Assembly (NCBI GenBank): GCA_026001245.1
Contig: BNZR01000068.1
Span: forward strand, 1-7,038
DNA from: Clostridia bacterium
GTDB lineage: Bacteria > Bacillota_A > Clostridia > Oscillospirales > UBA929
Direction of reading: 5' to 3'
Length of the DNA: 7,038 nt
Below the pieces are notes generated by a model. That model was not told the origin of the DNA, did not search any database, and saw only the letters and a program-made list of their open reading frames with translations. The position numbers and the translations under genes were made by a program. Shown here in pieces: positions 1,010 through 7,038 of the stretch (within the stretch, counting starts at the first letter, position 1; every line of letters starts with the position of its first letter).

Positions 1010-2269
1010 ATGTACGATACAGGCACAGAAACGGCGCGGGAACGCGCAATACTCGTCGGATTAAGTTGCAATTTATCCGACTTTGACAACGTGAGCGACA
1101 CAACCATGGACGAACTGGAGGCTTTGCTTGACACGGCGGGGGGCGACACTGTCGCCCGCGTCCTGCAACACAGGCCGTCGCCCGAGCCGCGCACCTTGAT
1201 CGGAGAGGGCAAAGTGGCTGAAATCAAGGCGTTGCTACAGGCGCACGAGCTGGATTTGGTGGTTTTCGACAACGAGCTGTCGCCCTCCCAGACCCGCAAT
1301 CTTGAAAAGGATTTGGGCGCACGTGTCGTTGACCGCAGTTTGCTGATTTTGGACATCTTCGCGTCACGCGCCCTCACGCGGGAAGGGCGGTTACAGGTCG
1401 AAGCCGCGCAGTTGCAGTATATCCTTCCTCGCCTGTCGGGATTGGGGCTGTCGCTATCGCGTCAGGGCGGCGGCGGGCAAAAATCCCCCATCGGCACACG
1501 CGGCCCCGGCGAAACCCAGCTGGAAACCGACCGCCGTCACATTCACCGCCGTATCGAAACTCTGCAATCCGAGCTGAAAGAGGTGCGGCGCGGGCGAGCG
1601 TTGTTGCGGGACCGCCGCGACAAAAACGAGGTGCCAATGGTGTCGCTGGTGGGGTACACCAACGCGGGCAAATCCACTCTGTTCAACGCTTTGACCGACG
1701 CGGGCATCCCCGCCCGCAACCGCCTGTTTGACACGCTGGACACCACCGTCCGCGCCCTGGCGCTGGACGACGTTTTGCAGGTCATGCTGACCGACACTGT
1801 GGGATTTATCCGCAAATTGCCCCACCATTTGGTCGAAGCGTTCCGCGCTACGCTGGACGAGCTGAAATACTCAAAGCTGTTGTTGCACGTCATTGACGCG
1901 TCAAACCCCGAATGGCAGGAGCAGGCGGCGGTTGTGGACAAGCTTTCGGACAGCTTGGCGGACAACATCCCGCGCCTGCGGATTTACAATAAAATCGACC
2001 TCGCGCCCGACGCGTCCTTTGCCGACGGGCTGTGCGTGTCCTCTGTGACGGGCGACGGGTTGGAGGCTCTGCGCGCCAAAATCGCCGAATTGTTGGAATT
2101 GGGCACGCGGCGCGTGGAGTTGCTTCTGCCTTACAACCGTGCGGATTTGCTGGATCTGCTTCACCGCGAGGCGAAAATCAATCGTGAGGAGTACACCCCC
2201 GACGGGATCTCTGTCGCCGCGATATGCGAGGACAAGGTTTTCGGGCAAGTTAAAGAATGGACGCTGTAA
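1010..2269 (+). CDS. hflX: Ribosome-associated GTPase HflX
   Basis: HflX is a GTPase (and ATPase) that binds the 50S subunit and splits stalled 70S ribosomes, for example after heat or antibiotic stress. The 419-residue product has the full family layout. The N-terminal HflX domain spans about 10-150, with RTLIGEGKVAEI at 61-72. The glycine-rich linker GGGGQKSPIGTRGPGETQLE is at 153-172, followed by a helical coiled segment (173-203). The G domain has G1 GYTNAGKS (215-222), the switch-region TLDTTVR (242-248), G3 DTVGF (262-266), G4 NKID (327-330) and a G5-like SSVTG (344-348). A short C-terminal domain follows. All nucleotide-binding motifs are intact, so it should be active. AAAAGGAG (997-1004) overlaps the upstream stop and sits 5 bases before the ATG. 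The 3' end overlaps yigZ by 13 bases. Confidence 0.97.
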   Translation: MYDTGTETARERAILVGLSCNLSDFDNVSDTTMDELEALLDTAGGDTVARVLQHRPSPEPRTLIGEGKVAEIKALLQAHELDLVVFDNELSPSQTRNLEKDLGARVVDRSLLILDIFASRALTREGRLQVEAAQLQYILPRLSGLGLSLSRQGGGGQKSPIGTRGPGETQLETDRRHIHRRIETLQSELKEVRRGRALLRDRRDKNEVPMVSLVGYTNAGKSTLFNALTDAGIPARNRLFDTLDTTVRALALDDVLQVMLTDTVGFIRKLPHHLVEAFRATLDELKYSKLLLHVIDASNPEWQEQAAVVDKLSDSLADNIPRLRIYNKIDLAPDASFADGLCVSSVTGDGLEALRAKIAELLELGTRRVELLLPYNRADLLDLLHREAKINREEYTPDGISVAAICEDKVFGQVKEWTL

Positions 2270-2865
2270 AGGTTCCGCTGAAAGACGCGGAGTTCACGCT
2301 GGTTGAAAAACGCTCGAAATTTATAGGCAGGATTTTTGTCGTAAGCGATGAAAATTCTGCCTTGTCGCGCCTTGCCGAGGTTCGCGCCCGCCATCGCGAC
2401 GCGACGCATAATGTCTATGCCTACCGAATTTTAGAAAATAATCTCACGCGCTACAGCGACGACGGCGAGCCGTCCGGCACGGCGGGGATGCCCGTGCTGG
2501 ACGTGCTTGCGCGGCCAAACATCAGCAACGCGCTGTGCGTGGTCACGCGATACTTCGGCGGGACGCTGTTGGGGACGGGCGGGCTTGTCCGTGCCTACGC
2601 GGCGGCGGCGAAGGGGGTGTTGGAAGCGGCGGGCGTGTCGGAGCTTGTGGAGGTAGCGACCGGCGCGGCAACCGTGCCGTACCCGCTGTGGGAGCAGGTG
2701 CAGCAGCTGGTGGAGTTTCCGGAAAATATTGAATATGGTGAGAGTGTAAAGCTGGTTTTTAGGGTGAAAAACGCGGAGAAAGAGGACTTTGCGGCGCGGG
2801 TTGTGGATTTGACGCATGGGCGGGTTTGCGTTGAGTGGCTTGGGGTTAGGTTGGGGGTGCTGTAG
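2257..2865 (+). CDS. yigZ: YigZ/IMPACT family protein (UPF0029)
   Basis: This 202-residue protein belongs to the YigZ (UPF0029/IMPACT) family. The exact biochemical role is unsettled; the eukaryotic relative IMPACT regulates translation control through GCN1/GCN2. Hallmarks are KRSKFIG (18-24), HRDATHNVYAYR (46-57), SDDGEPSGTAGMP (67-79) and VVTRYFGG...LGTGGLVRAY (95-114). A smaller C-terminal domain (about 135-195) corresponds to the DUF1949 region. The length is at the low end for the family, but both domains appear complete. The ATG lies inside the end of hflX (13-base overlap) with no good ribosome binding site, which suggests translational coupling. Its last 20 bases overlap the 3' end of the opposing STAND gene. 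Confidence 0.93.
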   Translation: MDAVKVPLKDAEFTLVEKRSKFIGRIFVVSDENSALSRLAEVRARHRDATHNVYAYRILENNLTRYSDDGEPSGTAGMPVLDVLARPNISNALCVVTRYFGGTLLGTGGLVRAYAAAAKGVLEAAGVSELVEVATGAATVPYPLWEQVQQLVEFPENIEYGESVKLVFRVKNAEKEDFAARVVDLTHGRVCVEWLGVRLGVL

Positions 2866-5842
2866 GGAGCAATTTATCGCACCATTCCGGGTATGTGGAT
2901 TGGCGCTCGTCAAGCCACGCGACAAAATTTTCGTCTTTGCCTCCCGCTGTCAAATAGGAGTCACACATAGATTCAAACGTATCTTTTGTGTTGGGGTTTT
3001 CCATTAATCCGCGCTTAACTCTTACAATATACGCACGGCAAAACAAATCCCGTGCTTTGGCATATTCACCTTGGTCTCGGAATACGCACGCGATGTTGTT
3101 GTAAGTTGTCGCCGTATCAGGGTGTTCCGTGCCTAAAACTTTCTCTCTGATTTCCAAAGCTTTTTTACACAACTCCAACGCTTTGTCGCAGTCACCTTGG
3201 TCGTGGAATACGCACGCAATGTTGTTGTACATCGTCGCTATATCGGGGTGTTCCGTGCCTGAAACTTTCTCTCTGATTGCCAAAGCCTTATAATGCCACT
3301 CCAATGCTTTGTCGTAGTCACCTTGGTCTTGGAATACGCACGCGATGTTGTTGTATGTTGTCGCCGTAAATGGGTGTTCCGTGCCTAAAACCTTCTCGCT
3401 AATTGCCAACGCCTTTTTATACCATTCCAACGCTTGGTCGTAGTCACCTTGGTCGTGGTATACGCACGCGATGTTGTTGTACGTCATCGCCGTATCAGGG
3501 TGTTCCGTGCCTAAAACTTTCTCTCTGATTCCCAACGCCTTTTTATGCCACTCCAACGCTTTGTCGTAGTCACCTTGGTAGTGGTATAAATTCGCGATAT
3601 TGTTGTAGGTTGTCGCCGTATTGGGGTGTTTCGCGCCGAAAACCTTCTCGCTGATTGCCAAAGCCTTATAACGCAACTCCAACGCTTTGTCGTAATCGCC
3701 TTGGTCGTGGAATACGCACGCGATGTTGTGCAAAAGATGTGCAATTTCCTTATCTTCCTCGTCTTTGAAAAACTTGCTGACAGATATCGCGTGCGGCAAG
3801 ATTGGTAGTTTCGCCGTAAAAATTTCTGTGATTTCCATCTCTAGAGCTTTCCTTAACTGCACCACCAGTGGCTTGCCCTCATCCCACTCAACCGGTTGCT
3901 CCTTGCGCACGACCGCCGCTATTATTGGGTGCATGCTGACGGCATTGTCTACCTCTCTTTTCAGCCAGCCGCGCTTATTCAACTTGTTAACTGCGTCGGG
4001 GTTCGGCAAATCGAGCCACTTTTCTACGTGACTATACGCAATTTTGTCCGGTGCCAGCAACGAAAACAGCCGCAACACGCGTAGCTCCTCGCCCTCAATG
4101 CCGGCCATATCGAAAATTTTGCTCATATGCCCGATAAACCTATCTTCTGCGTCCACCCGTTCAATTTTCCCCCATTTTTCAGAAAGGTCGAACCCTCTCT
4201 CGCTAAGTTCTTTCAACATGTCCTCATCGGATTGCCAGCTTTCATACCGTGTTTTCGCTAAAAGCTCCACCGCCAGCGTGTGGCGGCCGGCTAACTTGAT
4301 TATAGCGTCAATGGTTTTGTCAGGCGCGGCGTTCTCCGCCGCATGGGTGTCTTCGGGGTTCGCGTGACGGCGATATAGCTTTCGGCAATCTTCAAGGGAT
4401 AACTCGTCCACTTTGACGTATTGAATATCTCCCCGTATATCTAATTTATAGCGCGCAGTCACAATAACTCGGCAACTAAGCTCGCTTAACAGACGCAACT
4501 CTTCTTTAGATATTTCGTTCGCGTTGTCCACAAAAAGCAGCAAGCTGTGTCCCTTGTCGTTAAGATATTGCACAACCCTGCTGAAATAGTCCTCTTTGTT
4601 GCCCGTCCCGTCGGCGATGTCCTTAAATTGCCCCATGAACGTGGAGGGTAGATCCCCTTGGAACGTAAGCCAGCCCACCTGCGCAATGCCGTGAACGCCG
4701 TTTTTTTCGCACTCCCAAAATATACTACGGCAAATCTCGGTTTTGCCTATGCCGCCGATACCATTCAGCACAGCTGTTTTGTCTGCGTCCAACGCCTGCC
4801 AAACCTCGTCTATTTTTTTGTCGCGCCCTAAAAACTCCTTAGCGGGGCGTTCCGGCTTTGGGAGGGTTACTATCCTGTTTGACGGCAGGACATTCTCGTC
4901 AAAATCCTTGTAGGCTTCCCACTTGCCGTGGTTATTAAATTTGGACGTTACCCATCTGTGTGCGTTGAATTTCCGCAGTTGCCCGCCAGAAGCAATTTCC
5001 CCGACGGAAAAAACAACCTCCGTATCCTTTTCATATGTCATACAGCCCATAGTAATTTCGTGTACATTGTTTATACGGCGATGCCAATCCTTGTGCGCGT
5101 CTCCGCACAAATACAGCGCGACTTGAGGATATGCGCTAAACCAAGACTCAATCTTTTTGCACTCGTCCGCCCTAAAGGTGTCAAGCGTGTGGTGCGCCAA
5201 AATGATAATCGGTTTCCCGTTTGCAGAGGTTTTCTTCAGCGCCAAATCCAAATCGTTGCAACCGATAACCAACTGGCCGCGCTCGTCGTTGCGATTGCAC
5301 GTGACCGCCGTGTTAAGGTAAATGATGTTGTAGTCGTTGCCGCAACGGTAGGTGTGCAGGGGTAGCAACGTATCGTTCTCCCAAATAGCGGCTTCCGGGT
5401 CGTCGCCGTATAGATTCTTGCTGACAAGTTTATAAAACTCAAATCGGCTTAATAAAGTCTCGACGGGAAGCTCTTTGGTTCCGATAACACCTCTGTTGGG
5501 GTCGTAACTTTTTTGCAGTTCCTTTAGCGTTTCGGCTTTGTCCAGTTTATCGTCAAACCGCGTCAGATCGTGGTTGCCGGGTATGATGTGTATATGGCTA
5601 ACGTCGTTAATGCCGACGCTGTGGGCAATATCCCAAATAAAGTTGACGACATCACGCGCAATCGCGTCTTGATCGTCGTCTTTTTGGTTGGACGCGTGGC
5701 GATAATCGCCGGTAATGAACAACTCATCTACCGCGCCGATTTTGTCTTTAAGGTATTGTGGCAACGCCCCGCGCAGGTCACGAGAGACAATACCGTCGCG
5801 CTTGGGGTCATAGTGCAAATCGGATATGTGTAGCCATTTCAT
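2846..5842 (-). CDS. Metallophosphoesterase / NB-ARC STAND NTPase / TPR fusion, candidate defence protein
   Basis: This 998-residue cytosolic protein has three modules. (1) A calcineurin-like metallophosphoesterase (1 to about 300) has D8-L-H10, G45-D46, G89-N-H-D92, A216-H-H218 and G247-D-A-H250. The last motif is usually G-H-x-H, so one ligand is Asp here. (2) A STAND NTPase of NB-ARC type (about 335-650) has FLGR (337-340), Walker A GIGGIGKT (361-368), Walker B LLLFVDN (434-440), VIVTAR (459-464), GRHTLAVELLA (519-529), and a winged helix ending at MHPII (637-641). (3) Six 42-residue kinesin-light-chain-like TPRs (697-948) precede a short tail. The start at 5842 is preferred over 5914 because AAAGGTGG lies 7 bases upstream and the predicted promoter sits inside the longer reading. 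The family plan suggests that the TPRs sense a trigger, the NTPase oligomerises, and the phosphoesterase cleaves a nucleic acid, nucleotide or phosphoprotein. No signal peptide or membrane segment is seen. The defence role is inference. Confidence 0.9.
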   Translation of the reverse strand: MKWLHISDLHYDPKRDGIVSRDLRGALPQYLKDKIGAVDELFITGDYRHASNQKDDDQDAIARDVVNFIWDIAHSVGINDVSHIHIIPGNHDLTRFDDKLDKAETLKELQKSYDPNRGVIGTKELPVETLLSRFEFYKLVSKNLYGDDPEAAIWENDTLLPLHTYRCGNDYNIIYLNTAVTCNRNDERGQLVIGCNDLDLALKKTSANGKPIIILAHHTLDTFRADECKKIESWFSAYPQVALYLCGDAHKDWHRRINNVHEITMGCMTYEKDTEVVFSVGEIASGGQLRKFNAHRWVTSKFNNHGKWEAYKDFDENVLPSNRIVTLPKPERPAKEFLGRDKKIDEVWQALDADKTAVLNGIGGIGKTEICRSIFWECEKNGVHGIAQVGWLTFQGDLPSTFMGQFKDIADGTGNKEDYFSRVVQYLNDKGHSLLLFVDNANEISKEELRLLSELSCRVIVTARYKLDIRGDIQYVKVDELSLEDCRKLYRRHANPEDTHAAENAAPDKTIDAIIKLAGRHTLAVELLAKTRYESWQSDEDMLKELSERGFDLSEKWGKIERVDAEDRFIGHMSKIFDMAGIEGEELRVLRLFSLLAPDKIAYSHVEKWLDLPNPDAVNKLNKRGWLKREVDNAVSMHPIIAAVVRKEQPVEWDEGKPLVVQLRKALEMEITEIFTAKLPILPHAISVSKFFKDEEDKEIAHLLHNIACVFHDQGDYDKALELRYKALAISEKVFGAKHPNTATTYNNIANLYHYQGDYDKALEWHKKALGIREKVLGTEHPDTAMTYNNIACVYHDQGDYDQALEWYKKALAISEKVLGTEHPFTATTYNNIACVFQDQGDYDKALEWHYKALAIREKVSGTEHPDIATMYNNIACVFHDQGDCDKALELCKKALEIREKVLGTEHPDTATTYNNIACVFRDQGEYAKARDLFCRAYIVRVKRGLMENPNTKDTFESMCDSYLTAGGKDENFVAWLDERQSTYPEWCDKLLPTAPPT
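2999..3754 (-). repeat. 126-bp tandem repeat array encoding six TPRs
   Basis: Six consecutive 42-codon units encode residues 697-948, with repeat starts at residues 697, 739, 781, 823, 865 and 907. The consensus protein unit begins HPDTATTYNNIACVFHDQGD and continues YDKALEWHKKALAIREKVLG. On the + strand the word GGTGTTCCGTGCC recurs at 3121, 3247, 3373 and 3499, with a degenerate copy at 3625, spaced exactly 126 bases apart. A hand comparison of the units at 3121 and 3247 gives about 106 identical bases of 126. The outermost units (2999-3120 and the N-terminal half of the unit near 3754) are more diverged. This is protein-coding repetition, not a CRISPR array or an intergenic repeat. Confidence 0.93.
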
Positions 5843-5849
5843 AGTCTTG

Positions 5850-5857
5850 CCACCTTT
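5850..5857 (-). promoter_or_regulatory. Ribosome binding site fixing the STAND gene start
   Basis: Read on the - strand this is AAAGGTGG, 7 bases before the ATG at 5842. The alternative in-frame ATGs at 5863 and 5914 have no comparable purine-rich site upstream, and the one at 5914 lies upstream of the predicted transcription start. The protein starting at 5842 begins MKWLHISDLH, which places the first phosphoesterase metal motif at the usual distance from the N terminus. Confidence 0.8.
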
Positions 5858-5869
5858 CTGCATAGGTCG

Positions 5870-5879
5870 AACAGCTGTT
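5870..5879. promoter_or_regulatory. Perfect 10-bp palindrome at predicted STAND transcript start
   Basis: AACAGCTGTT is a perfect inverted repeat lying 7-16 bases downstream of the STAND gene's -10 box, which is about where its transcript should begin. That is a classic place for a repressor operator. It could also be chance, since a 10-bp palindrome is short and no second copy is seen in the window. Confidence 0.3.
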
Positions 5880-5885
5880 ATATAA

Positions 5886-5914
5886 ATTATAATGGTTTGC
5901 GGGATATTTTGCAA
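5886..5914 (-). promoter_or_regulatory. Sigma-A-type promoter of the STAND gene
   Basis: On the - strand, TTGCAA (5914-5909) is followed by a 17-bp spacer and a perfect TATAAT (5891-5886). Transcription should begin near 5879, giving a leader of about 37 bases before the ATG at 5842. The near-consensus -10 and ideal spacing predict substantial basal expression unless repressed. Confidence 0.75.
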
Positions 5915-5961
5915 GCTTTTTCAGCAAATATATAACGGCCGCATCCCCACGCAAAAACCTC

Positions 5962-5990
5962 TTGCAATAGTGCGAATTTTGCTGTATAAT
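5962..5990 (+). promoter_or_regulatory. Sigma-A-type promoter of iorA
   Basis: TTGCAA (5962-5967), a 17-bp spacer and TATAAT (5985-5990) precede iorA. The start of transcription should be near 5997, about 23 bases before the ATG. The hexamers and spacing are the same as those of the divergent STAND promoter, with 47 bp between the two -35 boxes. Confidence 0.8.
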
Positions 5991-6019
5991 CGTACTATAC
6001 TAAAGACAAGGAGGCAACT

Positions 6020-7038
6020 ATGCGGCTTTTAATGGGGAACGAGGCGATTGCGCTGGGCGCGCTTGCGGCGGGAATCAGCCTTGCGGCGGGATACCCAGGT
6101 ACGCCTAGTACAGAGGTTCTTGAAGCAATCGCGAAACAGCTTAAAACTGTCGAAAAGTCTAATATTTACGTTGAATGGTCCGTCAACGAGAAAGCCGCAC
6201 TGGAGCTGGCCGCCGGGGCCAGCTACGCCGGGGCGCGGACGCTGGTCACAATGAAGCAGGTCGGGCTGAACGTCGCCGCTGACCCGCTGATGAGCCTTGC
6301 GTACGTCGGCGTAAAGGGCGGAATGGTGGTGCTGGTCGCGGACGACCCTGGGCCGATTTCGTCGCAGACGGAGCAGGATACGCGCACCTTCGCGAAATAT
6401 TCAAAACTGCCGTGCTTTGACCCAAGCTCGCCGGAGGAGGCGTATTTGATGATTCAAGACGCGTTCGAGCTGTCAGAGGAACTGCGCACCCCGGTGATTT
6501 TTCGCCCCACTACGCGATTGTGTCACGCCACCGCGCCGATTGAAGTCGCCGAGGAGTGGAAAGCTCACGCCGTCAGCGGCTTTGTAAAAGACCCGAAGTG
6601 GGTGATTTTCCCGCGCCTGTCCGTCAAGGCTCACGCCGCGATTGAGACGCGAAACCGTGCGCTGTCCGACAGATTTTGCGGCTATAGATTCAACGCGATT
6701 GAGGGACGCGGCGGCGCGCTCGGAATCGCGACGGGCGGCGTGTGCTACGCGTATGTAAAAGAGGCGTTGAAATGTCTTGACGCGGAATGGGTGCGCGTAC
6801 TGAAAATCGCCACGCCGTTCCCGTTCCCGTATAAGCTTGCGCTGAATTTTATGGATAATATAGAGCGCGTACTGGTGTTCGAGGAACTTGACCCGGTAAT
6901 CGAGCGCGAGTTGCTGTACCTTGCGGGCGCGTCCGGGCGAAAAATTGACATTTACGGCACGGAAATAACGCAAAATCTGCCCGCCGCCGGCGAATACTGC
7001 GTAGAAATGATTACGGAGAAAATCGCGGAGTGCTTGGG
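6020..7038 (+). CDS. iorA: Indolepyruvate:ferredoxin oxidoreductase alpha subunit, 5' part
   Basis: IorA with IorB oxidatively decarboxylates arylpyruvates (indolepyruvate, phenylpyruvate) to acyl-CoA, reducing ferredoxin. It is oxygen-sensitive and serves aromatic amino-acid metabolism in anaerobes. The frame stays open for 339 codons to the window edge; the family is about 600 residues, so roughly the second half is outside. Visible are MGNEAIALGA (5-14), AGYPGTPSTEV (23-33), the thiamine-pyrophosphate-activating glutamate in VNEK (55-58, E57), TMKQVGLNVAADP (76-88) and DDPGPISSQTEQDTR (107-121), all typical of the pyrimidine-binding domain. The second domain follows. The C-terminal pyrophosphate-binding domain and the two [4Fe-4S] ferredoxin motifs lie beyond the window. 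AAGGAGG (6008-6014) is an ideal ribosome binding site 5 bases before the ATG. iorB would be expected downstream. Confidence 0.95.
   Translation, partial: MRLLMGNEAIALGALAAGISLAAGYPGTPSTEVLEAIAKQLKTVEKSNIYVEWSVNEKAALELAAGASYAGARTLVTMKQVGLNVAADPLMSLAYVGVKGGMVVLVADDPGPISSQTEQDTRTFAKYSKLPCFDPSSPEEAYLMIQDAFELSEELRTPVIFRPTTRLCHATAPIEVAEEWKAHAVSGFVKDPKWVIFPRLSVKAHAAIETRNRALSDRFCGYRFNAIEGRGGALGIATGGVCYAYVKEALKCLDAEWVRVLKIATPFPFPYKLALNFMDNIERVLVFEELDPVIERELLYLAGASGRKIDIYGTEITQNLPAAGEYCVEMITEKIAECL

Follow-up and report, generated by a model that had tools for sequence, protein, structure and literature searches.

Within a window of 7,038 nucleotides from a Clostridia bacterium (assembly GCA_026001245.1, contig BNZR01000068.1; the whole stretch of DNA analyzed here), a gene on the minus strand encodes a 998-residue protein, called the receptor below, that is probably a single-gene, NLR-like anti-phage receptor. 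The initial annotation had placed an N-terminal phosphoesterase, an NB-ARC NTPase, and C-terminal tetratricopeptide repeats (TPRs) in one chain, and all three were recovered in this open reading frame (ORF) as the Pfam families Metallophos, NB-ARC, and TPR_12. Its description of an effector, a STAND switch, and a repeat sensor also holds, with conserved motifs and with confident predicted folds for the first two parts. The candidate anti-phage role, likewise proposed there, is well supported by homology and analogy. The support comes from the observed domains, conserved motifs, and confident predicted folds, from exchangeable parts (effector and core occur with other partners across wider families), from the BREX or prophage contexts of some relatives, and from DS-8, a protein of the same design described as experimentally anti-phage (PMC13092281). 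The receptor gene and its parts, including the metallophosphoesterase (MPE), are as follows.

2846..5842, minus strand: whole gene for the 998-residue MPE/NB-ARC/TPR protein, ORF uninterrupted from ATG 5842
4889..5842, minus strand: calcineurin-like MPE effector, residues 1–318
3743..4852, minus strand: NB-ARC (AP-ATPase) module, residues 331–700
2996..3751, minus strand: TPR array, residues 698–949, six 42-residue units of the kinesin-light-chain type

Effector and switch of the receptor family

The search for relatives, which scored only the 7996 candidates with the most words in common, gave 106 proteins: 31 with MPE, NB-ARC (NB), and TPR parts, 2 with MPE and NB, 1 with MPE and TPR, 46 with NB and TPR, 21 with the MPE only, and 5 with the NB only. 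The 31 three-part proteins include that of the window and two weak cases, P0031 (MPE end only) and P0035 (distant NB), and the alignment A1 holds a slightly different set of 31 rows (P0001–P0030 and P0032). A chance ORF or frame artifact was rejected on the basis of the three in-frame domains, the 105 other proteins found, and the conserved catalytic residues.

The Metallophos model (PF00149) matches residues 1–251 with an E-value of 3.9e-9 and 37.6 bits, above the cut-off of 21.5. Calcineurin-like enzymes coordinate metal through the ligands DxH, GD, GNH(D/E), H, and GHxH, and the motif residues of the receptor are D8, H10, D46, N90, H91, H217/H218, and 247-GDAH-250. D8, H10, D46, N90, H91, and H217 are kept wherever the residue is present (52–54 of 55 MPE-bearing proteins). 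D46 and the P-loop residue K367, both numbered correctly in the initial annotation, are invariant in all 31 aligned rows, that of the window included. Position 248, the first histidine of GHxH, is instead an aspartate in 53 of the 55 proteins, giving GDxH. The exceptions, P0083 (33% identical) and P0106 (26%), are not merely the pair that diverges most, since P0032 (30%) keeps the aspartate. Judged from sequence, the MPE of the receptor family thus bears a distinct metal-site signature, GDxH, in which D248 has a putative metal role.

In a fold comparison, the predicted MPE is SMPDL3A-like and related to the DS-8 metallophosphatase. Its best structural match is the entry of the YydB-YydD pair (9a6c_B), while its sequence found no convincing match among solved structures (best E 0.038). 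YydB, as the chain is identified from the entry title, differs from the receptor in working in a protein pair with YydD, and to our knowledge the pair has no STAND or TPR part; the organism of the entry is presumably B. subtilis. A row of three genes on Priestia megaterium plasmid pPmC-142-4 (L027:5977–9604), encoding an MPE, a small protein, and a DUF2326 protein, recalls this pair, as we take DUF2326 to be the YydD family. The same receptor design could also carry an MPE that acts as an Mre11-like nuclease on phage or host nucleic acid and not on small nucleotides, which we regard as somewhat unlikely.

A further alternative, which we judge unlikely, gives the MPE a controlling task instead of a killing one: it would clear a second messenger, much as animal SMPDL3A does for cGAMP, and thereby alter a signal that a different protein reads. 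In keeping with such a role, one MPE relative (L019) carries a fused TIR domain and has a second TIR gene as its neighbor, and TIR domains produce signals derived from NAD. The DS-8 authors also stress the homology to SMPDL3A and mention a cyclic nucleotide that awaits identification (PMC13092281). However, no TIR, cyclase, or second-messenger gene is present among the six window genes examined, and DS-8 is reported to work as a single gene (PMC13092281).

The Pfam NB-ARC model matches residues 341–539 (9.8e-6; 25.4 bits, above the cut-off of 23.5). The motifs comprise FLGR at 337–340, the P-loop at 361–368 with K367, the Walker B-like D439 and N440, T462/R464, and an MHD-like MHP at 637–639. 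G364, G366, K367, and D439 are conserved in 31/31 aligned rows, whereas His638 is found in 29/29 and Pro639 in 28/29 rows with a residue there. The predicted NTPase fold is nearest to the Apaf-1 class. When the module was searched alone, no NACHT model was matched at E up to 1, whereas NB-ARC passed its cut-off. With its P-loop, Walker B, and MHD-like motifs, the NTPase is by these sequence features of the NB-ARC/AP-ATPase STAND class.

Repeat sensor and its apparent turnover

The TPRs begin at about residue 700 (TPR_12, 4.7e-107), and their units resemble those of kinesin light chain (KLC; 3nf1_A, 6.4e-63). In KLC1, groove asparagines are described as binding cargo peptide (PMC3314626). The helix A asparagine pair is kept in five of the six receptor units, the first unit having HN. 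At the DNA level, the array repeats a 126-base unit 5.4 times, with 83% matches. A scan of genome contigs returned a single Lokiarchaeota protein (L001), matched at residues 672–986 only. In the genome of this protein (G001) and in each of five relatives (G002–G006), the TPR part is matched 10 to 17 times, and among the matches listed, all begin at residue 672 or later.

Compared with the closest relative, P0002, 188 of 249 residues are identical in the TPR region, as against 612 of 650 in residues 1–650. The first and last TPR units best match their positional counterparts (2/2), whereas none of the four inner units does, with small margins of the nonpositional over the positional matches (1 to 5 of 42 residues). 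Unit counts, which are provisional and perhaps too low because metagenome assembly may cut or collapse repeat arrays, are 2, 7, 9, 7, and 8 in P0006, P0009, P0010, P0011, and P0015, respectively (the last from a record named 'partial'), and 7 versus 9 in P0024 and P0025. In the first cluster, each MPE is at least 87% identical to that of its nearest member; between P0024 and P0025, the MPEs are 99% and the NBs 98% identical. Given the lower TPR identity to P0002 and the differing unit counts among close relatives, the sensor appears to change faster than the effector and switch.

Phage selection may drive this turnover. Tentatively, and as a possibility that we hold to be less than probable, the receptor would belong to a family of bacterial NLRs in which near-identical TPR units are reshuffled through recombination in the 126-bp repeats, so that the recognition of phages is renewed. 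The effector and switch would stay near-constant, unit number and groove residues would vary between close relatives, and the effector would be a GDxH-type phosphodiesterase with its own metal site. Variable TPR positions did not cluster significantly on the groove face (475 and 1088 of 5000 shuffles were as good). In both TPR groups, the entropy moments of helix A are directed between N8 and N9, and the variability pattern is partly common to the two groups (Spearman 0.48; 0.39 without the unit-picking positions).

Known systems and contexts of relatives

DS-8 (DefensePredictor) is described as a single protein, anti-phage in E. coli, with an SMPDL3A-homologous metallophosphatase and a NACHT domain, and mutating either abolishes defense (PMC13092281). 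Its authors state that the metallophosphatase domain had no phage-defense validation before DS-8 and DS-9. In layout and effector fold, the window protein agrees with the description of DS-8 (PMC13092281), and its MPE is related to the DS-8 model NF053861 (3.5e-16 over window residues 5–317). However, DS-8 carries a NACHT domain, whereas the candidate anti-phage protein of the window carries NB-ARC with a KLC-type TPR array. Because of this switch class, the TPR sensor, and a score far below the cut-off, the receptor is not a member of the DS-8 family. Membership in DS-8, Avs, or bNACHT was considered and is not claimed.

Avs and bNACHT proteins also place an N-terminal effector before a STAND switch and C-terminal repeats, a resemblance in how the parts would work. 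No Avs model was among the four PADLOC families matched at E up to 1 (PADLOC 2.0.0), and the window NTPase lies outside the NACHT clade of bNACHT. Apaf-1, CED-4, and plant NB-ARC NLRs differ in their N- and C-terminal parts, with about 14% identity to Apaf-1. Thus, of the search against defense collections and STAND profiles that the initial annotation had suggested, NB-ARC passes its cut-off, while no Avs or NACHT model was matched at E up to 1 and DS-8 stays below its cut-off.

Domain surveys count calcineurin-like domains among the exchangeable effectors that STAND and related conflict systems carry (PMC7159879, PMC8195603). The STAND NTPases of the eLife 2021 survey (PMC8195603) share the effector-STAND-sensor order, a predicted counter-invader role, and listed calcineurin-type effectors, but the cores treated there are NACHT, MNS, and nSTAND1 with FGS lectin-like domains attached, and not NB-ARC with TPR. 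The earlier view of the phosphoesterase effector as unusual has therefore been overtaken by DS-8 (PMC13092281) and these surveys, and it is no new effector class. The present analysis seems to contribute the definition of an MPE/NB-ARC/TPR family that carries a GDxH motif and a seemingly fast-changing sensor array.

Neighborhoods were read in viral contigs and one plasmid. Of 15 viral-contig loci, ORFs were listed for eleven (L014, L023, L024, and L025 being left out), part of which were family-searched. These contexts are examples and not an enrichment, because the collection is viral by selection. In L012 (9443–21288), an NB-ARC-TPR core relative with an unrelated N terminus lies directly upstream of BrxA, BrxB, BrxC, and PglX genes. 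In L019, the MPE-TIR protein is followed by the second TIR protein and then by a phage integrase, after which come amidase, holin, and tail genes. In L026 (383–2272), a 629-residue protein opening with an MPE relative (GHSH motif) adjoins a phage integrase, beyond which lie a second integrase and endolysin, holin, and tail genes. Likewise, a core relative in L013 follows tape-measure and amidase genes. The initial annotation had asked whether homologues occupy defense islands or variable loci; BREX genes beside one core relative and integrases near two MPE relatives bear on this, but none of these proteins is three-part.

Some details of these loci stand on their own. The BrxC homologue of L012 is broken up among several ORFs, and a match to PsyrA comes from one overlapping ORF. 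In L019 (623–3924), the MPE-TIR gene and the second TIR gene lie between the contig end and a prophage serine integrase as a candidate two-gene defense module. In L013 (9935–17819), the tail and lysis genes of the phage contig lie upstream of the core relative and a SEFIR/TIR protein.

The receptor could in principle be a non-immune signaling STAND protein, such as a MalT-like or developmental regulator, in which the MPE tunes a cyclic nucleotide level on a metabolic ligand. This is quite unlikely, as no DNA-binding domain was found among the matches listed (25 of 27 Pfam families), some core-sharing proteins without the MPE bear TIR, nucleoside phosphorylase, or kinase domains, the sensor repeat number varies between close relatives, and relatives have BREX and prophage neighbors. 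Conversely, some MPEs without the window's core precede other AAA/STAND domains (P0036, P0045, and P0053). Exchange of partners by effector and core is clear only across wider families.

Several results weigh against the anti-phage assignment. The full three-part protein is absent among the 15 viral-contig loci, and the viral collection searched with the window protein alone gave no relative. Only 3 of 72,556 plasmid records and 1 of 50,697 phage records were matched, none covering 80% of the query. The neighbors of the receptor gene are housekeeping genes and form no defense island. Only in its MPE part does the receptor match the DS-8 model, with 58.2 bits against a cut-off of 790, and this model also gives matches below cut-off in 7 of 14 control genomes, so that weak matches are common. 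In the open-licence literature, no phage phenotype was found reported for the NB-ARC version. Moreover, MPE and NB pairwise identities correlate (r 0.93; 378 pairs of 28 rows, P0003, P0018, and P0030 being dropped from A1), which indicates a stable architecture within the three-part family.

In companion searches, the three-part P0006 matched 4 of 50,697 phage records, three of them in the TPRs only and in no case across 80% of the query, and P0053, with its MPE on another core, had no match in plasmid or phage records. No MPE-NB-ARC-TPR protein was named in the titles or abstract openings listed from the open-licence literature. Free effector-switch exchange within the three-part family was mostly rejected on the MPE-NB correlation. 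For P0017 and P0019, whose NBs are 62% and MPEs 41% identical with long MPE branches, such an exchange is possible.

Locus and proposed mechanism

The remaining features of the locus are as follows.

5850..5857, minus strand: Shine-Dalgarno-like AAAGGTGG ahead of ATG 5842, from the sequence
5886..5914, minus strand: promoter-like TTGCAA-17-TATAAT for the receptor gene, from a motif scan
5962..5990, plus strand: divergent promoter-like TTGCAA-17-TATAAT before iorA, from the motif scan and under the same shuffle caution
2257..2865, plus strand: yigZ/IMPACT gene, convergent neighbor, from ORF and family search
6020..7036, plus strand: iorA (indolepyruvate ferredoxin oxidoreductase alpha), cut by the window end

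A longer ORF could start at TTG 5914. ATG 5842 is favored because AAAGGTGG lies just upstream and the start is shared by aligned relatives: the same first methionine is found in the other 30 rows except P0019, with 48 extra N-terminal residues, and P0003, without the first part. The well-placed TTGCAA-17-TATAAT at 5914–5886 agrees with the initial proposal of an own promoter. However, such sites are no commoner than in shuffles (4 in region 2700–6100 versus 3.5, sd 1.7), so only position speaks for it. The two identical sites between the receptor gene and iorA (5886–5990) point apart.

As had been noted before, the receptor gene runs against its neighbors: rpmE, the flavin-reductase-like gene, hflX, yigZ, and iorA are all on the plus strand. 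Its 3' end and that of yigZ are convergent and overlap by 20 bases (2846–2865). The proposed difference in composition holds for four neighbors: the receptor gene has a GC content of 0.490 and 0.591 at third codon positions (GC3), whereas the flavin-reductase-like gene, hflX, yigZ, and the iorA part have 0.554–0.598 and 0.690–0.750, respectively. It does not hold for rpmE, which is close (GC 0.509, GC3 0.595). Among relatives of the window HflX, the best has 81% identity and bears the name Clostridia bacterium, while receptor residues 1–700 have a 93% relative in another record of that name and a 74% relative in a record named Bacteroidia bacterium. These identities hint at lateral transfer of the receptor gene, which is not claimed because hflX of those genomes may be missing from the database and the names may be wrong.

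For the receptor as an anti-phage protein, we infer the sensing, nucleotide exchange, oligomerization, substrate, and outcome as follows. The resting receptor would be ADP-bound and closed. Its KLC-type TPR superhelix would recognize a phage-borne or phage-altered peptide or protein in the asparagine-lined groove, upon which the NB-ARC module would exchange nucleotide and the chains would oligomerize. This would bring the N-terminal MPEs together and switch them on. The activated MPE, as an SMPDL3A-like phosphodiesterase, would then cut a nucleotide or nucleotide-derived molecule, and its activity would stop the infected cell before phage release.

The family of 31 proteins joins an effector related to that of DS-8 to an Apaf-1-type switch and a simple TPR sensor, which makes substrate and sensing testable in one compact protein. 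In addition, the repeat turnover may exemplify how recombination among repeats diversifies a bacterial receptor.

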